Source: Dyella acidiphila (GTDB lineage Bacteria; Pseudomonadota; Gammaproteobacteria; Xanthomonadales; Rhodanobacteraceae). From it: DNA of 64,000 nt. The position numbers were made by a program, and so were the translations under genes. The notes under the pieces are model-generated. The model ran no database searches. It worked only from the letters and a program-made list of their open reading frames with translations, and had not been told where the DNA came from. The first letter of the stretch is position 1. Every line of letters begins with the position of its first letter. Location: positions 124,001-188,000 of the forward strand of contig NZ_JACZZA010000004.1 of the NCBI RefSeq assembly GCF_014863405.1. The letters run 5' to 3'. This document shows, piece by piece, positions 1,146 to 54,787 of the stretch.

Positions 1146-3758
1146 GTGACCTCCCATGCCTCCGCGCCGCTCAACACCGGCGCACCCTGGATCGTGATGA
1201 AGTTCGGCGGCACCAGTGTCGCCACCCTGCCGCGCTGGCAGAACATCCGTGAGCTCGTTGCCAGCCGCCGCGCCGAAGGCGCCCGCGTGCTGGTGGTCGT
1301 GTCCGCGCTCACCGGCATCACCGACGCACTCAAACAAATGTGCGCGCAGGACGACCAGGGCAAACGCATCGAGGCTGCCAAGGCGATCGCGCAACGTCAC
1401 TACGACCTGCTCGATCACATGCAGCTGGCGGTTCCGGACGCACTCGGCGCACGCCTGAGCGAACTGGCCAAACTGGCCGAGCAAGGGCCGGCGGTGCTGG
1501 GCGAGCTGGCGTGGTCGGCCCTGGTGCAGGCGCATGGCGAGCTGATGTCCAGCGCGCTCGGCGCGGCGTTCCTGAGCCACAGCGGCCTGCCCACGCAATG
1601 GCTGGACGCGCGCGACTGCCTGGCCGCCATCGCACTGCCCAACCAGAACGAGCGCACCAAGCTGCTGTCGGCCATGGTCGAGGCCAAGCCCGATCCGGCC
1701 TTGAACACGCGCCTGGCGCAGCTGGGCGAGGTGTTCATCACGCAGGGCTTTATCGCGCGCGAAGCGCAGGGCCGCACGGTGCTGCTCGGCCGCGGCGGTT
1801 CGGATACCTCGGCCTCGTATTTCGGTGCGCTGCTGAAAGCGCAGCGGGTGGAAATCTGGACCGACGTGGCCGGCATGTTCACCGCCAATCCGCGCCAGGT
1901 CTCCGGTGCGCGCCTGCTGCAGAAACTGGATTACGAAGAAGCGCAGGAAATCGCCTCCACCGGTGCCAAGGTGCTGCATCCGCGCTGTCTCTCGCCACTG
2001 CGCGAGCCGCGCGTGCCGATGCTGATCAAGGACACCAACCGGCCCGAACTCGAAGGCACGGTGATCGGCCCCGAAGTGCGCGAACACGCCCCCAGCGTCA
2101 AGGCGATCAGCGCGCGCAAAGGCCTGACCCTGGTGTCGATGGAATCGGTCGGCATGTGGCAGCAGGTCGGCTTTCTTGCCGACGTGTTCGCGCATTTCAA
2201 GCAGCACGGGTTATCGGTGGACCTGATCGGTTCGGCCGAAACCAATGTCACCGTATCGCTCGATCCCACCGAAAACCTGCTCGATTCCGATGCCGTGGCG
2301 GCGTTGGCCAGCGACCTGTCCAAGGTGTGCCGGGTGAAAGTGATCGCGCCCTGCGCGGCGATCACCCTGGTTGGCCGCGGCATGCGCTCGATGCTGCATA
2401 CCCTGTCCGGCGTGCTGGCCGAATTCGGGCAGTTGCGCGTGCACCTGATTTCGCAATCGTCGAACAACCTCAACCTCACCTTCGTGGTGGACGAGAGCGT
2501 GGTCGACGAACTGGTGCCGCGTCTGCACGAGATGCTGATTGCCGCCGGCGCCCTGCGCACCGACGACAGCGCATTGTTCGGCCCCAGCTGGCAGACCCTG
2601 TACGGTAGCGGCGAAACCGTCGCCGCCGACGATGCGTGGTGGCGTTCGGAGCGTCGCGCCCAACTGCTCACACTTGGCGCCGAAGCCACGCCGCGCTACG
2701 TCTACCATCTGCCGACGGTGCGCAAACAGGCGCGCGAGCTGAAAACGCTGAGTGCGGTGGATCGCCTGCATTACGCGGTCAAGGCGAATACGCATCCGGC
2801 GATCCTGCGCGCGCTGGCCGAAGAAGGTTTCGGCTTCGAATGCGTCTCGCCCGGCGAATTGAAAGCAGTGATGGCGGTAGTGCCCGAATCGGCACCGCTG
2901 CTGTTCACGCCCAACTTCGCGCCGCGCGAGGACTACGCCTGGGCGTTGGGTACGCGCGCCACCGTCTCGCTCGATTCGCTCTATCCGCTGGAGCATTGGG
3001 GCGACGTGTTCCGTGGTCGCGAGATCGTATTGCGCGTGGACCTGGGCCGCGGCCTGGGCCATCACGAAAAAGTGCGCACCGGCGGCAGCGGCAGCAAGTT
3101 CGGCCTGCCGGTGGATCAGCTCGATACCTTCCTGCGCCTGGCCGACGCCCACCATGTCACCGTGCGCGGCCTGCATGCGCACCTGGGCTCGGGCATCCTC
3201 GACGACAAACACTGGGGCGAGGTCTACAACCAGCTCGCCAGCCTGGCCGAGCGCATCGGCAGCGTGGCCTTCCTCGATATCGGCGGCGGCCTCGGGGTGC
3301 CTTCGCATCCGGGCGAAGCGCGGCTGGATATCGCCGCGCTGGAAGAAGTGCTGCGCAAGGTGAAATCCGCGTATCCGCATTACCAGCTGTGGATGGAGCC
3401 CGGCCGCTACCTGGTAGCGGATGCGGGCGTGCTGCTCACCCGCGTCACCCAGCAGAAGGGCAAGGGCTCCTGGCGCTACCTGGGCGTGGACACTGGCATG
3501 AACAGCCTGATCCGCCCCGCGCTGTACGACGCCTGGCACGAGATCGTGAACCTCTCGCGCCTGGACGAGCCGGCCACCGCGTTGTACCAGGTGGTGGGCC
3601 CGATCTGCGAAAGCGGCGACGTCATCGGCTCCGACCGCCGCCTGCCGGAGGCGCAGGAGGGTGATGTGATGCTGATCGCCCAGGCCGGCGCCTACGGCAA
3701 GGTGATGTCCTCGCCGTACAATCTGCGGGATGAGGCGCAAGAGATCATCATCGAGTGA
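1146..3758 (+). CDS. lysAC: Bifunctional aspartokinase / diaminopimelate decarboxylase
   Basis: Fusion of the first and last enzymes of the DAP-lysine pathway, 870 aa. The N-terminal half is an aspartokinase: KFGGTSVAT near residue 19, RGGSDTSA in the catalytic part, then tandem ACT-type regulatory segments to about residue 475. The C-terminal half is a fold-type III PLP decarboxylase. It has the PLP lysine in HYAVKAN (about residue 544), then GSGSKFGLP, HLGSGI, the phosphate-binding DIGGGLGVP, EPGRYLV and the active-site GPICESGD. The assumed start is GTG at 1146 with only a weak ribosome site; an in-frame ATG lies at 1197 immediately before KFGG. This fusion is known in Xanthomonadaceae. 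Having both activities in one chain means lysine feedback through the ACT segments could act on the entry step. No lysine riboswitch is visible upstream. Confidence 0.95.
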   Translation: MTSHASAPLNTGAPWIVMKFGGTSVATLPRWQNIRELVASRRAEGARVLVVVSALTGITDALKQMCAQDDQGKRIEAAKAIAQRHYDLLDHMQLAVPDALGARLSELAKLAEQGPAVLGELAWSALVQAHGELMSSALGAAFLSHSGLPTQWLDARDCLAAIALPNQNERTKLLSAMVEAKPDPALNTRLAQLGEVFITQGFIAREAQGRTVLLGRGGSDTSASYFGALLKAQRVEIWTDVAGMFTANPRQVSGARLLQKLDYEEAQEIASTGAKVLHPRCLSPLREPRVPMLIKDTNRPELEGTVIGPEVREHAPSVKAISARKGLTLVSMESVGMWQQVGFLADVFAHFKQHGLSVDLIGSAETNVTVSLDPTENLLDSDAVAALASDLSKVCRVKVIAPCAAITLVGRGMRSMLHTLSGVLAEFGQLRVHLISQSSNNLNLTFVVDESVVDELVPRLHEMLIAAGALRTDDSALFGPSWQTLYGSGETVAADDAWWRSERRAQLLTLGAEATPRYVYHLPTVRKQARELKTLSAVDRLHYAVKANTHPAILRALAEEGFGFECVSPGELKAVMAVVPESAPLLFTPNFAPREDYAWALGTRATVSLDSLYPLEHWGDVFRGREIVLRVDLGRGLGHHEKVRTGGSGSKFGLPVDQLDTFLRLADAHHVTVRGLHAHLGSGILDDKHWGEVYNQLASLAERIGSVAFLDIGGGLGVPSHPGEARLDIAALEEVLRKVKSAYPHYQLWMEPGRYLVADAGVLLTRVTQQKGKGSWRYLGVDTGMNSLIRPALYDAWHEIVNLSRLDEPATALYQVVGPICESGDVIGSDRRLPEAQEGDVMLIAQAGAYGKVMSSPYNLRDEAQEIIIE

Positions 3759-3772
3759 TCCCGCATGCTTTT

Positions 3773-3808
3773 CCCTCTCCCCTAGGGGGAGAGGGCAGGG
3801 TGAGGGGC
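3773..3808 (+). repeat. Family A palindrome (A1), forward
   Basis: CCCTCTCCCC-TA-GGGGGAGAGGG stem followed by the asymmetric tail CAGGGTGAGGGG and then CTCGCG. It lies 15 bases after the lysAC stop and may serve as its terminator. It is the first of four family A elements around the DUF559 gene. Confidence 0.9.
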
Positions 3809-3871
3809 AAGCTCGCGTTGAATGAAGATCGGGGCGGGCTTGGCTGGTGATTTTCGCAAGGTTGGCTGCTC

Positions 3872-3903
3872 GCCCCAACCCTTTCTCCGGAGGAGAGAGG
3901 GAG
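3872..3903 (-). repeat. Family A palindrome (A2), reverse
   Basis: Reverse-oriented, partly degenerate copy: GCCCCAACCC tail followed by a CTTTCTCCGG/AGGAGAGAGGG stem. It ends 33 bases before the probable DUF559 start codon. With A1 it forms a tail-to-tail pair about 63 bases apart. Confidence 0.85.
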
Positions 3904-3936
3904 CTGTCTACGGCAAGCATGGAAGGATGCGTCAGG

Positions 3937-4317
3937 ATGAAACGCATGCATGTGGATCGGGCGCGTGGATTGCGCCGGGCAATGACCGACACCGAGTTGC
4001 GGCTATGGCGTTATTTGCGCAATCGCCACCTGATGGGAAGCAAATTTCGCCGCCAGCACGAGATCGATCGCTACATCGTCGATTTTGTGTGTGTTGAAGC
4101 AGCTCTGATTGTGGAGCTGGACGGCGGCCAGCATGCCGAAATGATGGCGGAGGATGCCCGTCGCACGCGCAGGCTCGAAGCATTGGGTTACCGTGTGCTG
4201 CGTTTCTGGAACAATGATGCATTGACGAATACCGAGACGGTGCTTGCGGTGATTTTGGAGGCTGTGGCTAGAGCGGCCCCTCACCCCAGCCCTCTCCCCG
4301 GAGGGGAGAGGGAGTAG
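3937..4317 (+). CDS. DUF559 / Vsr-like endonuclease-fold protein
   Basis: Small cytoplasmic protein (126 aa from this start) of the DUF559 family, which has the PD-(D/E)XK/Vsr very-short-patch endonuclease fold. Visible family signatures are the N-terminal basic helix RARGLRRAMTDTELRLWRYL, then KFRRQHEI, D49-F50, and the E60-L-D62-G-G-Q-H66 motif, which matches the expected metal-binding acidic cluster. Near the end VLRFWNNDAL is also typical. The start ATG at 3937 is chosen because GGAAGG at 3921-3926 is well placed; ATGs at 3919 and 3946 are alternatives. The last 13 residues (APHPSPLPGGERE) are encoded by repeat A3, so the repeat supplies the C-terminus and stop codon. Pairs of family A repeats bracket the gene. 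The biological role of DUF559 proteins is not established. Confidence 0.85.
   Translation: MKRMHVDRARGLRRAMTDTELRLWRYLRNRHLMGSKFRRQHEIDRYIVDFVCVEAALIVELDGGQHAEMMAEDARRTRRLEALGYRVLRFWNNDALTNTETVLAVILEAVARAAPHPSPLPGGERE
4276..4316 (-). repeat. Family A palindrome (A3), reverse, forms the DUF559 3' end
   Basis: Reverse copy: CCCCTCACCCCAGCCCTC tail then a TCCCCGGAGGGGA stem. It is translated in the DUF559 frame and provides the last 13 codons and the TAG stop. Confidence 0.92.
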
Positions 4318-4341
4318 AGCCCGTGCGAGGGCGCCGCTCTT

Positions 4342-4381
4342 CCCCCTCTCCCCTCCGGGGAGAGGGCTGGGGTGAGGGGCC
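4342..4381 (+). repeat. Family A palindrome (A4), forward
   Basis: Complete forward copy with the CCCCTCTCCCC/GGGGAGAGGG stem, tail CTGGGGTGAGGGG, then CTCGCG. It lies about 40 bases upstream of the murL start codon. A3 and A4 diverge, whereas A1 and A2 converge. Confidence 0.92.
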
Positions 4382-4422
4382 ACCCTCGCGAAGTAACTGC
4401 AATAAAGCCGGAGTTTTTAAGC

Positions 4423-5790
4423 GTGACCAACCCGATCCAACCCCGCCTCACCCAGGTCTTCCGCTTCGTACGCTGCAGCTACGCCAACGGCGTGGCCGAG
4501 CTGGTGTATGCCTTCGACCAGGGCGAGGAATTGATCGAGCGGGTCAGTTTTCCCGCGCCGCCGCATTTGCCGCCCGAGCGCAAGCAGGCCTTCGACGCCG
4601 CGTTGAAACTGCTGCATCTGTTTGCCGGCGTCAGCTATTACAAAGCCGGCATTCCGCCGAAGATCGATATCGCCGATGGTCCGCTCGACGACGCCACGGC
4701 CGATCTGCTGGAGGCGCTGTACCTGCACGGCCTGGCGGAATTCGCCTATCGCAATGGCCTGGATCTGCGCGGCCGCATCGTGTTCCCGCGCACCAGCTCT
4801 TCTCCCTCTCCCCTGCGGGGTGAGGGGCACGCACTTGCCCAGGCACTCGCTTTGCCCAAGCGCACCTTGGTCCCCATCGGCGGTGGCAAAGACTCACTGG
4901 TCGCCGTGGAAGCCATCAAGCAAACCGGCGGCGACGCCACCGCGGTATGGGTCGGCAATTCGCCGCTGATCGCCGCCTGCGCGCAGCGCACCGGGCTGCC
5001 CACGCTCAATATCCAGCGCGAACTCGCCCCGGGCCTGTTCGAACTCAACCGCCTCGGTGCCTGGAACGGGCATATCCCGGTCACCGCGGTGAACTCCGCC
5101 ATTCTCGCGCTCGCTGCCATCCTCTACGGCTACGACAGCATCGCCTTCGCCAACGAACGCTCCGCCTCCGCCGCCACGCTGGAATACGAAGGCCAGCAAG
5201 TGAACCACCAGTGGAGCAAGGGCTACGCCTTCGAGCGGCTGCTGGGCGACTGGCTGCACACGCATGTGGCGGCCGATCTGGATTACTGCTCGCTGCTGCG
5301 CCCGTATTCGGAACTGGCGATCACGCGTGCCTTTGCGCGCCTCACGCCGTATTTCGATGTGTTCTCCAGCTGCAACCGCAATTTCAAGATTCTCGGCCCC
5401 AAGCCCGCCGATCGCTGGTGCGGCCAATGCCCGAAATGCCACTTCGTATTCCTCGCGCTGGCACCGTTCCTGCCTAAACCGCGCCTGCTCGCCATCTTCG
5501 GCCGCAACCTGCTCGATGACGACACCCAAGCCGCCGGCTTCGACGCGCTGCTGGAATACCACGACCACAAACCGTTCGAATGCGTGGGCGAAGGCGCGGA
5601 AGCGCGCGCCGCCATGTACGCGCTGAGCCAGCGGCCGGAATGGCAGGAAGACGCCCTCGTCGCACGCTTCCGCAGCGAGATCCTGCCGCAGCTCGATGCG
5701 ACCGAGCTGGCGCTGGAACCCTGGCTGCAGCCGGCCGGCGAGCATCGCGTACCGGCACGCTTGCAGCCGGCGCTGGCGGCGATCGGCTGA
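4423..5790 (+). CDS. murL: UDP-MurNAc-L-Ala-L-Glu epimerase MurL
   Basis: MurL converts UDP-MurNAc-L-Ala-L-Glu to the D-Glu form during cytoplasmic peptidoglycan precursor synthesis, replacing the glutamate racemase route. With MurD2 it was described in Xanthomonas. The protein is 455 aa and contains the PP-loop-like ATP motif PIGGGKDSLV (about residue 148), NERSASAATLEYEG, and a Cys-rich segment around SSCNRNFK and WCGQCPKCHF. GTG at 4423 is chosen because GGAG at 4410-4413 is correctly spaced. A truncated family A repeat (4801-4830) is inserted in frame, adding about residues 126-136 (SPSPLRGEG) between the N-terminal part and the ATP motif. The stop is one base before the murD2 start, so the two are an operon. 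The family call is strong; tolerance of the insertion is inferred from the intact frame. Confidence 0.92.
   Translation: MTNPIQPRLTQVFRFVRCSYANGVAELVYAFDQGEELIERVSFPAPPHLPPERKQAFDAALKLLHLFAGVSYYKAGIPPKIDIADGPLDDATADLLEALYLHGLAEFAYRNGLDLRGRIVFPRTSSSPSPLRGEGHALAQALALPKRTLVPIGGGKDSLVAVEAIKQTGGDATAVWVGNSPLIAACAQRTGLPTLNIQRELAPGLFELNRLGAWNGHIPVTAVNSAILALAAILYGYDSIAFANERSASAATLEYEGQQVNHQWSKGYAFERLLGDWLHTHVAADLDYCSLLRPYSELAITRAFARLTPYFDVFSSCNRNFKILGPKPADRWCGQCPKCHFVFLALAPFLPKPRLLAIFGRNLLDDDTQAAGFDALLEYHDHKPFECVGEGAEARAAMYALSQRPEWQEDALVARFRSEILPQLDATELALEPWLQPAGEHRVPARLQPALAAIG
4801..4830 (+). repeat. Family A palindrome fragment (A5) inside murL
   Basis: Forward copy missing part of the right stem: CCCTCTCCCCTGCGGGG runs straight into TGAGGGG. 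It is translated as SPSPLRGEG in MurL and keeps the frame. Confidence 0.88.
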
Positions 5791-11090: not shown

Positions 11091-11517
11091 TCGTTAGGCC
11101 GGGGCGATGTTTACGTTTCCATGTCCATAAAACGCGATGCCATGTGCAGCGCGCTAAAGCCCCAGCAACCCCACCCCAACCCTCCCCTGCCTTCGCAGGG
11201 GAGGGAGTCATATCTTCAGCCTTGCGTGATCTGCTCCCTCCCCTACGTGAAGTAGGGGAGGGCTGGGGTGGGGTGAAGCCCCCACACTCGCGGCAAACCA
11301 CAGAACAACGCCATCCCAACCCTCCGCTGCCTTCGCAAGGGAGGAAGTCATGTCGGCGAGTGCGGAACATCTTCAGCCCCGCGTAATCTGCCCCCTCCCC
11401 TACGTGAAGTAGGGGAGGGCTGGGGTGGGGTGAAGCCCCCACGCTCGCGGCAAACCACAGAACAACGCCAACCCAACCTCCCTTGCTATCGCAAGGGAAG
11501 AATCCAACCCATCGGAG
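11091..11517. other. 427-base intergenic region filled with family B repeats
   Basis: No gene seen. The region lies between convergent genes and consists almost entirely of a family B array (separate entry). The remainder, around 11100-11165, shows nothing recognisable. Confidence 0.85.
11170..11500. repeat. Tandem array of family B palindromes (B2-B6)
   Basis: Five elements in alternating orientation: reverse 11170-11207, forward 11235-11277, reverse 11312-11347, forward 11392-11435 and a degenerate reverse one near 11471-11500. The forward units share CCTACGTGAAGTAGGGGAGG and a GGGGTGGGGTGAAG tail. The joining sequence (GCGGCAAACCACAGAACAAC) is also repeated, at about 11291 and 11450, so a unit of about 158 bases has been duplicated in tandem. 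The array could terminate transcription from both sides. Confidence 0.88.
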
Positions 11518-14978: not shown

Positions 14979-15018
14979 CTCCCTCTCCCCTGCGGGGAGA
15001 GGGTTGGGGTGAGGGGGC
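14979..15018 (+). repeat. Family A palindrome (A6), forward
   Basis: Full copy: CCCTCTCCCC-TGC-GGGGAGAGGG stem with tail TTGGGGTGAGGGG and then CTCGCG. It lies 63 bases after the adhesin stop. Confidence 0.92.
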
Positions 15019-15101
15019 AGCCTCGCGATCATGCTGATACGTAGCGTGGAGCCTCTTTGGAAAAGCATCACGCACTGGCGTTGATGCTTGTGGCAAGCGC
15101 G

Positions 15102-15140
15102 GCCCCTCACCCCAGCCCTCTCCCCGCAGGGGAGAGGGAG
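15102..15140 (-). repeat. Family A palindrome (A7), reverse
   Basis: Full reverse copy: CCCCTCACCCCAGCCCTC tail, then a TCCCCGCAGGGGA stem. It is paired tail-to-tail with A6 between convergent genes and is a likely bidirectional stop for transcription. Confidence 0.92.
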
Positions 15141-54675: not shown

Positions 54676-54715
54676 TCCCTCCCCTGCGTAGGCAGGGGAG
54701 GGCCGGGGTGGGGTT
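54676..54715 (+). repeat. Family B palindrome (B7), forward
   Basis: CCCTCCCCTGCGTAGGCAGG core, then GGAGGGCC and tail GGGGTGGGGTT. It lies between aroB and the WGR gene. Confidence 0.88.
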
Positions 54716-54741: not shown

Positions 54742-54787
54742 CTTCACCCCACCCCAACCCTCCCCTACTTCACGTAGGGGAGGGAGC
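54742..54787 (-). repeat. Family B palindrome (B8), reverse
   Basis: CTTCACCCCACCCCAACCCT tail, then a CCCCTACTTCACGTAGGGGA core. Tail-to-tail with B7; the pair splits the aroKB and WGR-hemE parts of the cluster. Confidence 0.9.

Follow-up and report, generated by a model that had tools for sequence, protein, structure and literature searches.

A DUF559 nuclease flanked by BoxC-like palindromes in Dyella acidiphila is a candidate enzyme partner of a widespread bacterial repeat

In the 64,000-nucleotide stretch of the Dyella acidiphila genome analysed here (the window), a gene for a DUF559 (PF04480) nuclease makes up a compact genetic unit together with the palindromes around it, mostly inward-facing copies of a polypyrimidine/polypurine hairpin. 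The association between DUF559 genes and such hairpins extends far beyond the window, across phyla as judged by record titles, and repeat-rich genomes usually have the gene. DUF559 is therefore a good candidate for the enzyme behind the spread or upkeep of repeats that have been known for long without an explanation. Our best explanation, which we hold to be probable, is that the nuclease is a trans-acting partner of the BoxC-like repeat family, with a function resembling that of RAYT proteins but performed by an unrelated nuclease. No published link between DUF559 and repeats was found in the literature searched, which was available partly as excerpts and had most subscription papers and preprints outside it, so that prior publication is possible.

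The nuclease gene and its repeats in the window

The unit lies downstream of a gene for a fused aspartokinase/diaminopimelate decarboxylase (identified by its Pfam domains; the name and the label lysA used below are ours) and upstream of a gene without a Pfam match at E <= 1e-5. The features are as follows.

3773..3808, + strand: repeat A1; pyrimidine-arm hairpin 3773-3795, then the third purine arm GGGTGAGGGG on the gene side
3867..3901, - strand: repeat A2, imperfect; pyrimidine head from about 3867, hairpin at about 3879-3901
3919..4317, + strand: gene for the DUF559 (PF04480) PD-(D/E)XK nuclease, 140.5 bits to PF04480
4276..4312, - strand: repeat A3; pyrimidine head CCCCTCACCCC (4276-4289) toward the gene, then hairpin 4290-4312
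4344..4380, + strand: repeat A4; hairpin 4344-4366, purine arm up to 4380
4804..4828, + strand: fifth, truncated family A copy (family D1), within the protein-coding part of the next gene

The first-pass annotation had described two family A elements on each side of the gene, A1 and A4 in one orientation and A2 and A3 in the other, and had read the last codons of the nuclease as part of A3. All four elements were found in those places, reading of the window gave the same orientations, and the protein does end in the A3-encoded AAPHPSPLPGGERE*. The start of the gene is uncertain (ATG at 3919, 3937 or 3946), and its ORF ends at 4317. A2, opposite in orientation to A1, fails a strict hairpin definition, and its 59-nt surroundings share 73% similarity with those of A3. 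The right flank of A4, CCTCGCGAAGT, equals the flank beside a solo repeat of the relative G012. The truncated copy at 4804-4828 is in frame in the downstream gene, where it encodes PSPLRGEG. In the whole D. acidiphila genome (5.07 Mb) DUF559 has a single match at E <= 0.001.

In a full repeat copy a pyrimidine arm is followed by a short loop, a purine arm, a spacer of 2-3 nt and the third purine arm GGGTGAGGGG. Read directly and set beside Table 1 of PMC4666352 (available in part), A1, A3 and A4 have the layout of the BoxC or intrastrand triplex motif, and A2 has it imperfectly. As single-stranded DNA the window copies are predicted to form a 10-bp hairpin by a folding tool that predicts only the hairpin (for A1 a 10-bp stem with a centroid energy of -11.5 kcal/mol). 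The window holds 25 matches to CCCTCTCCCC with at most one mismatch, against 3.8 expected and a maximum of 10 in 100 shuffles, and the 5.07-Mb genome holds 174 palindromes CCCTCTCCCCnnnGGGGAGAGGG with at most two mismatches, against 0 for the pattern read backward; these counts exclude chance as the source of the repeat abundance. According to the accessible parts of PMC4666352, the BoxC/PIT/TMECO motif occurs in >260 genomes, its E. coli form makes a triplex in vitro and does not detectably do so in cells, triplex repeats go with genome instability, and the 23 E. coli copies have no mobility genes beside them, no partner gene being named in those parts. The same palindrome is present in 100 copies in Enterobacter sp. 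638 (PMC2869309, excerpts).

The window also contains another palindrome family, CCCTCCCCT..AGGGGAGGG with the third arm GGGGTGGGG, at 11180-11205, 11236-11262, 11393-11419, 54677-54702 and 54758-54784. Its type flanks a Rhodanobacter DUF559 gene (L232), the window genome is without a second DUF559 gene, and the family is possibly an orphan whose nuclease was lost. A search of positions 3700-4500 against Rfam returned 53 matches, nearly all to microRNA models on the A3-A4 hairpin and none at the gathering score, which were taken as chance.

The nuclease protein

A score of 140.5 bits against PF04480, whose cut-off is 20.6, clearly places the window protein in DUF559. Its Pfam scan returned this family plus PF18741 below its cut-off, with no transposase domain and no HUH Y1 domain (PF01797). 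An AlphaFold2 model (mean pLDDT 85.6) has its best PDB folds in 3hrl (E 5e-9) and 3r3p, the endonuclease I-Bth0305I (E 4.3e-5), with Vsr (1vsr) at rank 7 (7e-3); profile searches likewise matched 3hrl (9.5e-39) and 3r3p (2.1e-5), and 13 further matches at E 0.42 and up were taken as chance. Among 72 aligned rows, E15 and E55 are invariant and D44, D57 and H61 are present in >=90%; we take these five residues to be the active site. The PD-(D/E)XK/Vsr fold that the first-pass annotation had given for DUF559 is thus borne out for the window protein, a Vsr/homing-type fold with conserved acidic residues. The E. coli relative YcjD had already been assigned to the PD-(D/E)XK superfamily, near Vsr (PMC1189080, excerpts), and VsrA, a Caulobacter DUF559 protein, has been linked to a cytosine methyltransferase and DNA damage (PMC12907096, excerpts). 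On a defence role, PADLOC gave only weak partial matches (E 0.003-0.004).

Pyrimidine-arm hairpins around DUF559 genes

DUF559 matches at E <= 0.001 are present in 35 of 61 genomes (the window genome and 60 relatives). The sample of relatives comprises 52 loci with up to 9 kb per side, five short or weak partial matches being excluded and pieces of one gene merged; since the loci share genomic contexts (23 in all, one common to 15 and another to 10), they are not 52 independent events. Within 500 bp of the gene, a CCCTCTCC-type palindrome (<=2 mismatches) is found upstream in 41/52, downstream in 42/52 and on both sides in 36/52, with a density of 2.33 per kb near the gene against 0.118 per kb beyond 2 kb, a ratio inflated, like the other near/far ratios given below, by far flanks that are mostly coding.

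A wider sample was drawn evenly from the phylum Pseudomonadota (398 genomes), where DUF559 is found at E <= 1e-15 in 108 genomes of 67 genera. Among the matches listed, one locus was taken from each of 54 further genera, together with 6 extra copies from two genomes. Control ORFs often have hairpins of some type nearby (153 and 134 of 523 for the relatives, 138 and 147 of 574 for the 54 genera), and therefore either pyrimidine arms, meaning a hairpin within 400 bp of the gene with 8 or more paired pyrimidines in an arm, or matching pairs were demanded. Such a pyrimidine-arm hairpin is present on either side in 50/54 genera and on both sides in 28/54, whereas 574 control ORFs lying over 2 kb from the gene in the same loci have one upstream in 24 cases, downstream in 26 and on both sides in 3. 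Among the relatives the figures are 48/52 for either side and 33/52 for both, against 4/523 control ORFs with both. In the 54 genera, the 250 bp adjoining the gene contain 115 hairpins and the farther 250-bp bins 0-10. Hairpins that share an 8-mer, whatever their arm letters, bracket 27/54 genes against 3/574 control ORFs, and 30/52 genes against 5/523 in the relatives. Four of the 54 genera loci and four of the 52 relative loci have a pyrimidine-arm hairpin on neither side; L119, one of the loci without a qualifying hairpin, has C-rich hairpins with an end A, which the rule excludes.

A third set comprises the best 80 of at least 585 stretches (at least 572 confirmed) found with 16 DUF559 query sequences, one genome per species; these named loci are ranked by similarity rather than random, a few probably overlap the phylum sample, and two come from one genome. 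Hairpins occur on either side in 65/80 and on both in 41/80, at 2.49 per kb near against 0.076 far. By record title, with several records being metagenome bins, hairpin-bearing loci belong to Planctomycetota, Dehalococcoidia, Candidatus Kapabacteria, Candidatus Marinimicrobia, Candidatus Binatia, Cyanobacteria and Desulfuromonadales. Between samples, L232 and L045, and L242 and L131, are probably the same loci.

Because the repeats sit in intergenic DNA, gaps were also compared with gaps. A pyrimidine-arm hairpin is present in 58/81 gaps beside DUF559 in the relatives, 67/89 in the 54 genera and 91/131 in the named loci (72%, 75% and 69%), against 22/298, 24/361 and 18/269 of the other gaps in the same loci (7.4%, 6.6% and 6.7%). 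This comparison removes the coding-flank bias, and a contrast of about 70% to 7% persists, in agreement with the enrichment of repeats around DUF559 genes that the first-pass annotation had looked to.

The hairpins also have a preferred direction. The third purine arm of the nearest upstream hairpin lies toward the gene in 97/134 cases (reverse 21, ties 16), as does the pyrimidine arm of the nearest downstream hairpin in 105/143 (reverse 22, ties 16), so that the unit usually has inward-facing inverted ends.

The association includes E. coli, whose ycjD (1351407-1351760; 167 bits to PF04480) has its 3' end inside the BoxC-like sequence CACCCTCTCCCTGA; TMECO no. 9 (1351204-1351239; Table 1 of PMC4666352, excerpts) lies 167 bp downstream of ycjD. 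A place covering >=80% of the ycjD region is found in 3364 of 5426 complete genomes. The four strains without a ycjD match that were opened carry an efflux operon beside sapF or fabI, efflux genes in such positions being described in PMC12817139 (excerpts), and the site was rejected as a clean present/absent pair. Across the ycjD start of strain MG1655 (L085, 2259-2301) there is a perfect inverted repeat, CACCTCATTCTGACAA / TTGTCAGAATGAGGTG, which differs from BoxC and is possibly an operator.

Repeat copy number and arm type follow the nuclease

Copies of the exact pattern CCCTCTCC-N1-12-GGAGAGGG were counted in the 398 phylum genomes. At least five are present in 68/108 genomes with DUF559 and in 16/290 without it (median 12 versus 0; Fisher p 9e-33, indicative only, as the genomes are not independent). 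Copy number unrelated to the gene, the outcome against which the first-pass annotation had set its proposal, did not occur. The contrast persists within several families; in family f17, for example, seven genomes with the gene have 12-339 copies, and those without it have 0, 0, 0, 0, 0, 0, 2, 2 and 64.

Exceptions exist in both directions. Fewer than five copies of the CCCTCTCC form are found in 40 of the 108 DUF559 genomes, for some of which other arm types account. When the 16 repeat-rich genomes without DUF559 at E <= 1e-15 were searched again with the DUF559 alignment, 8/16 had a match at E <= 0.001, nearly the whole domain within a 1129-aa frame in G279 and partial or weak matches in the seven others; this search found no free-standing full-length DUF559 gene in any of the 16. 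In G355 (152 copies), a DUF559 gene end lies beside BoxC-like sequence (L311, ~2830-4171) and adjoins a 384-aa frame that looks like an IS transposase, and the DNA before it resembles the DNA before the intact gene of G334. This gene end explains one of the 16 exceptions but none of the other 15, which count against a partnership.

The arm sequence differs by lineage. Arm types were counted in 64 chosen genomes, 47 with DUF559 and 17 without (E <= 1e-15). The ATCTCCCC type occurs in 6/64 (G114 197 copies, G227 153, G447 94, G308 21, G320 17, G253 3), and in G114, G227 and G447, all of family f61, it is also the type that flanks the nuclease. The CCCCTCTTT type occurs in 3/64 (G071 15, G167 12, G446 5) and flanks the nuclease in G071 and G446, both of family f15. 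The CCTTCCCC type is more widespread (22/64; highest in G339 with 65, G432 with 21, G437 with 14 and G419 with 11) and lies beside the genomes' own DUF559 gene in G339, G432 and G419; within family f16 it numbers 4, 6 and 8 in the three genomes with the gene, against 0 in seven and 1 in one of the eight without. The arm beside the gene in G437 and G308 is the related type CCTTCTCC. Against a partnership, G320 and G167, with 17 copies of the ATCTCCCC type and 12 of the CCCCTCTTT type, have no DUF559 match at E <= 1e-15. In G084, which has eight DUF559 matches, CCCTCTCCC types lie at L168 and L170 but CCCCTCCCT at L169 and L171, and the L169 and L171 proteins share a deletion.

A nuclease tree was built from 178 of 192 rows, those with an internal stop or fewer than 95 residues being dropped, and 17 of the rows kept have no arm label. 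On its 161 labelled rows arm type needs 58 changes, against a mean of 83.5 in shuffled labels (0/200 as low). Most large arm classes cluster on the tree, few of whose branches are well supported; clustering is absent for the CCTTCTCC class and slight for the CCTCTCC class. Joint inheritance of gene and repeats would by itself produce part of the flanking and of the arm-type match, which argues against a partnership.

Sites and repeat pairs without the gene

The downstream gene of the window unit is present in all 22 family f1 genomes that lack the unit there. After exclusion of G013 (contig end), 21 loci were compared, and a lysA-type gene adjoins the downstream gene in 11 of them, which gives 11 comparable sites. 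A repeat, altered repeat or remnant is present at 8 of these 11, so that empty sites which keep repeats without the gene, as sought in the first-pass annotation, do exist. A single full copy with its third arm is present in G002 and in G012, a single altered palindrome in G006 and in G008, and a degenerate one in G014 and in G017; G033 has a CCTTCTCCC-type hairpin and G029 a long insertion, and no repeat was seen at the sites of G026 and G031. The sole clear deletion remnant is in G005, where a pair of palindromes in a 161-bp interval, the first of them altered, encloses roughly the last 20-25 nuclease codons. The left flank of the G012 solo repeat matches that of A1 and the right flank that of A4, as would be left by recombination between A1 and A4 or by insertion at a repeat. 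No clear target-site duplication was seen at the gene-less sites. A DUF559 gene is present at another place in the genomes of G002, G006, G012, G014 and G017, which counts against a partnership.

At distances above 1 kb from the gene, 28/56 repeat pairs face inward and 11 outward, a count that includes part of the window twice (as the window and as L043). The idea that such pairs are internal deletions of the unit was rejected, 0/13 pairs being supported at p <= 0.01. The inward orientation of only half the pairs and this result weigh against a partnership, as does the lack of a clear target duplication. The window pair 14981-15138 has 15 aligned bases beside the head (0/500 shuffles), which we read as a shared repeat end and not a gene remnant.

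Y1 transposase loci and mobile replicons

A pyrimidine-arm hairpin was found near 0/32 loci of Y1 transposases (RAYT/IS200), some hairpin being near 17/32. These Y1_Tnp loci were 2 from the window genome and the best 30 of a longer list in 61 relatives, IS200-type and RAYT together, with the domain taken at fixed positions that are some tens of bases off where a contig end is near. For the order as sampled, the idea that RAYT moves family A was therefore rejected. Relatives of the window protein (E <= 1e-5) were found in 43 of 72,556 plasmid records, several of them chromosome-sized, and in 2 of 50,697 phage records, in searches with this one query protein that may miss distant members. The unit is therefore mostly chromosomal, and it is often inherited in place. 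RAYT genes are likewise mainly chromosomal and often inherited in place.

Discussion

Bracketing, copy number, arm type, the Y1 control, the gene-less sites and the inverted orientation together make DUF559 the likely enzyme partner of the BoxC/triplex repeats. We infer a course of events in which the nuclease would recognise the repeat extruded as a hairpin or triplex and would nick or cut there; host recombination or gap repair might then place further copies of the repeats, and in rare cases of the whole unit, elsewhere, the same repair would keep the copies alike, and gene-less sites would have changed in the direction of gene loss, leaving a solo repeat or remnant. Many units are inherited in place. 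We know of no strand-transfer chemistry in PD-(D/E)XK enzymes, so that spread of the repeat would need host repair. Cutting combined with host repair would account jointly for the bracketing, the copy number, the arm-type match and the solo sites.

The strongest rival, which we nevertheless regard as unlikely, lets the repeats spread otherwise, by replication slippage or template switching, and has DUF559 resolve hairpin or triplex blocks and so follow the repeat load. It agrees with the tracking of copy number by the gene, with the genome instability reported to accompany triplex repeats (PMC4666352, excerpts) and with a fold that is that of repair and homing nucleases, but leaves the gene's own bracketing by mostly inward-facing repeats unaccounted for, and is opposed by those genomes that retain repeats but lack a full-length gene.

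We give still less credence to a DUF559 protein with an unrelated job, such as mismatch repair or defence, that is carried between repeats spread by another enzyme. The ties of Caulobacter VsrA to a cytosine methyltransferase and DNA damage (PMC12907096, excerpts) would fit such a job, but one gene family is bracketed in most of the sampled genera where control ORFs are not, copy number and arm type follow DUF559, the obvious alternative movers, RAYT/IS200, are without such hairpins at 32/32 loci, and the PADLOC matches are weak and partial. The first-pass annotation had offered a RAYT-like partner that moves or maintains the repeats and a passenger as alternatives; the partner is preferred because, in the genomes compared, dispersed copies match the arm type beside the resident nuclease and because of the 0/32 Y1 loci, with moving and maintaining kept as what the enzyme may do. 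Least probable of all is a minimal insertion sequence with DUF559 as its sole transposase and gene-less pairs as its MITEs, which inward-facing ends at most loci, present and absent sites and pairs without the gene might suggest, but which is opposed by the Pfam scan without a transposase domain, the many units in shared places (52 loci in 23 contexts, two of them with 15 and 10 genomes), the rarity of relatives of the one query protein on plasmids and phages, the lack of a clear target duplication, and pairs that are generally not deletion products (0/13).

Beyond the partnership itself, we lean slightly towards a wider proposal, that DUF559 and its hairpins are a second, independently evolved enzyme-repeat partnership present in many phyla, in which a homing-type nuclease would copy triplex-forming palindromes via host repair, and of which E. 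coli BoxC and the triplex motifs of >260 genomes would be products or fossils. A partnership would make the origin, spread and genome-instability role of BoxC/triplex repeats directly testable in laboratory strains, through a specific, widespread nuclease with a solved structure. If it is real, DUF559, still of 'unknown function' in Pfam, gains a substrate to test, and partnerships like RAYT-REP arose more than once, from unrelated enzymes.

Comparison with known systems

By sequence and fold the window protein belongs to the DUF559/YcjD family with 3hrl (N. gonorrhoeae NGO0050), a family in whose literature, available mostly as titles and the beginnings of abstracts, no link to repeats is apparent. 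The Vsr-like homing endonuclease I-Bth0305I (3r3p) is significantly related in both profile (E 2.1e-5) and fold (E 4.3e-5); its 3r3p chain is called a mobile intron protein in the PDB, whereas the window nuclease is free-standing and tied to dispersed repeats. The terminal inverted repeats of insertion sequences and MITEs have their match in the inward-facing proximal repeats (97/134 and 105/143), but a transposase domain is absent from the Pfam scan of the window protein. The BoxC/PIT/TMECO motif has the same form as the window repeat, CCCTCTCCC-loop-GGGAGAGGG-spacer-GGGTGAGGGG, and occurs both as inverted pairs and singly (PMC4666352, excerpts); a partner gene is absent from those excerpts, and the present comparison of many genomes, E. 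coli with its ycjD among them, leads us to propose a nuclease in that role.

The closest functional parallel that we propose is RAYT-REP. A RAYT (TnpA-REP) gene is bracketed by REP/BIME/REPIN palindromes, which occur as inverted pairs and as solo copies, and the window system shares with it an enzyme gene flanked by a dispersed repeat of the same genome. Repeat copy number depends on the enzyme gene in RAYT-REP; here it correlates with the gene (68/108 versus 16/290 genomes) and may depend on it. REP repeats bear a GTAG or CGTC tag (PMC3733652, excerpts) at one end, a tag that is absent from the window copies on reading, where polypyrimidine/polypurine hairpins with a third arm are found instead. 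The enzyme is of the HUH Y1 type in RAYT and of the PD-(D/E)XK type here, and the transposase chemistry of the former would have its counterpart in the homing-endonuclease-like cutting that we propose for DUF559.
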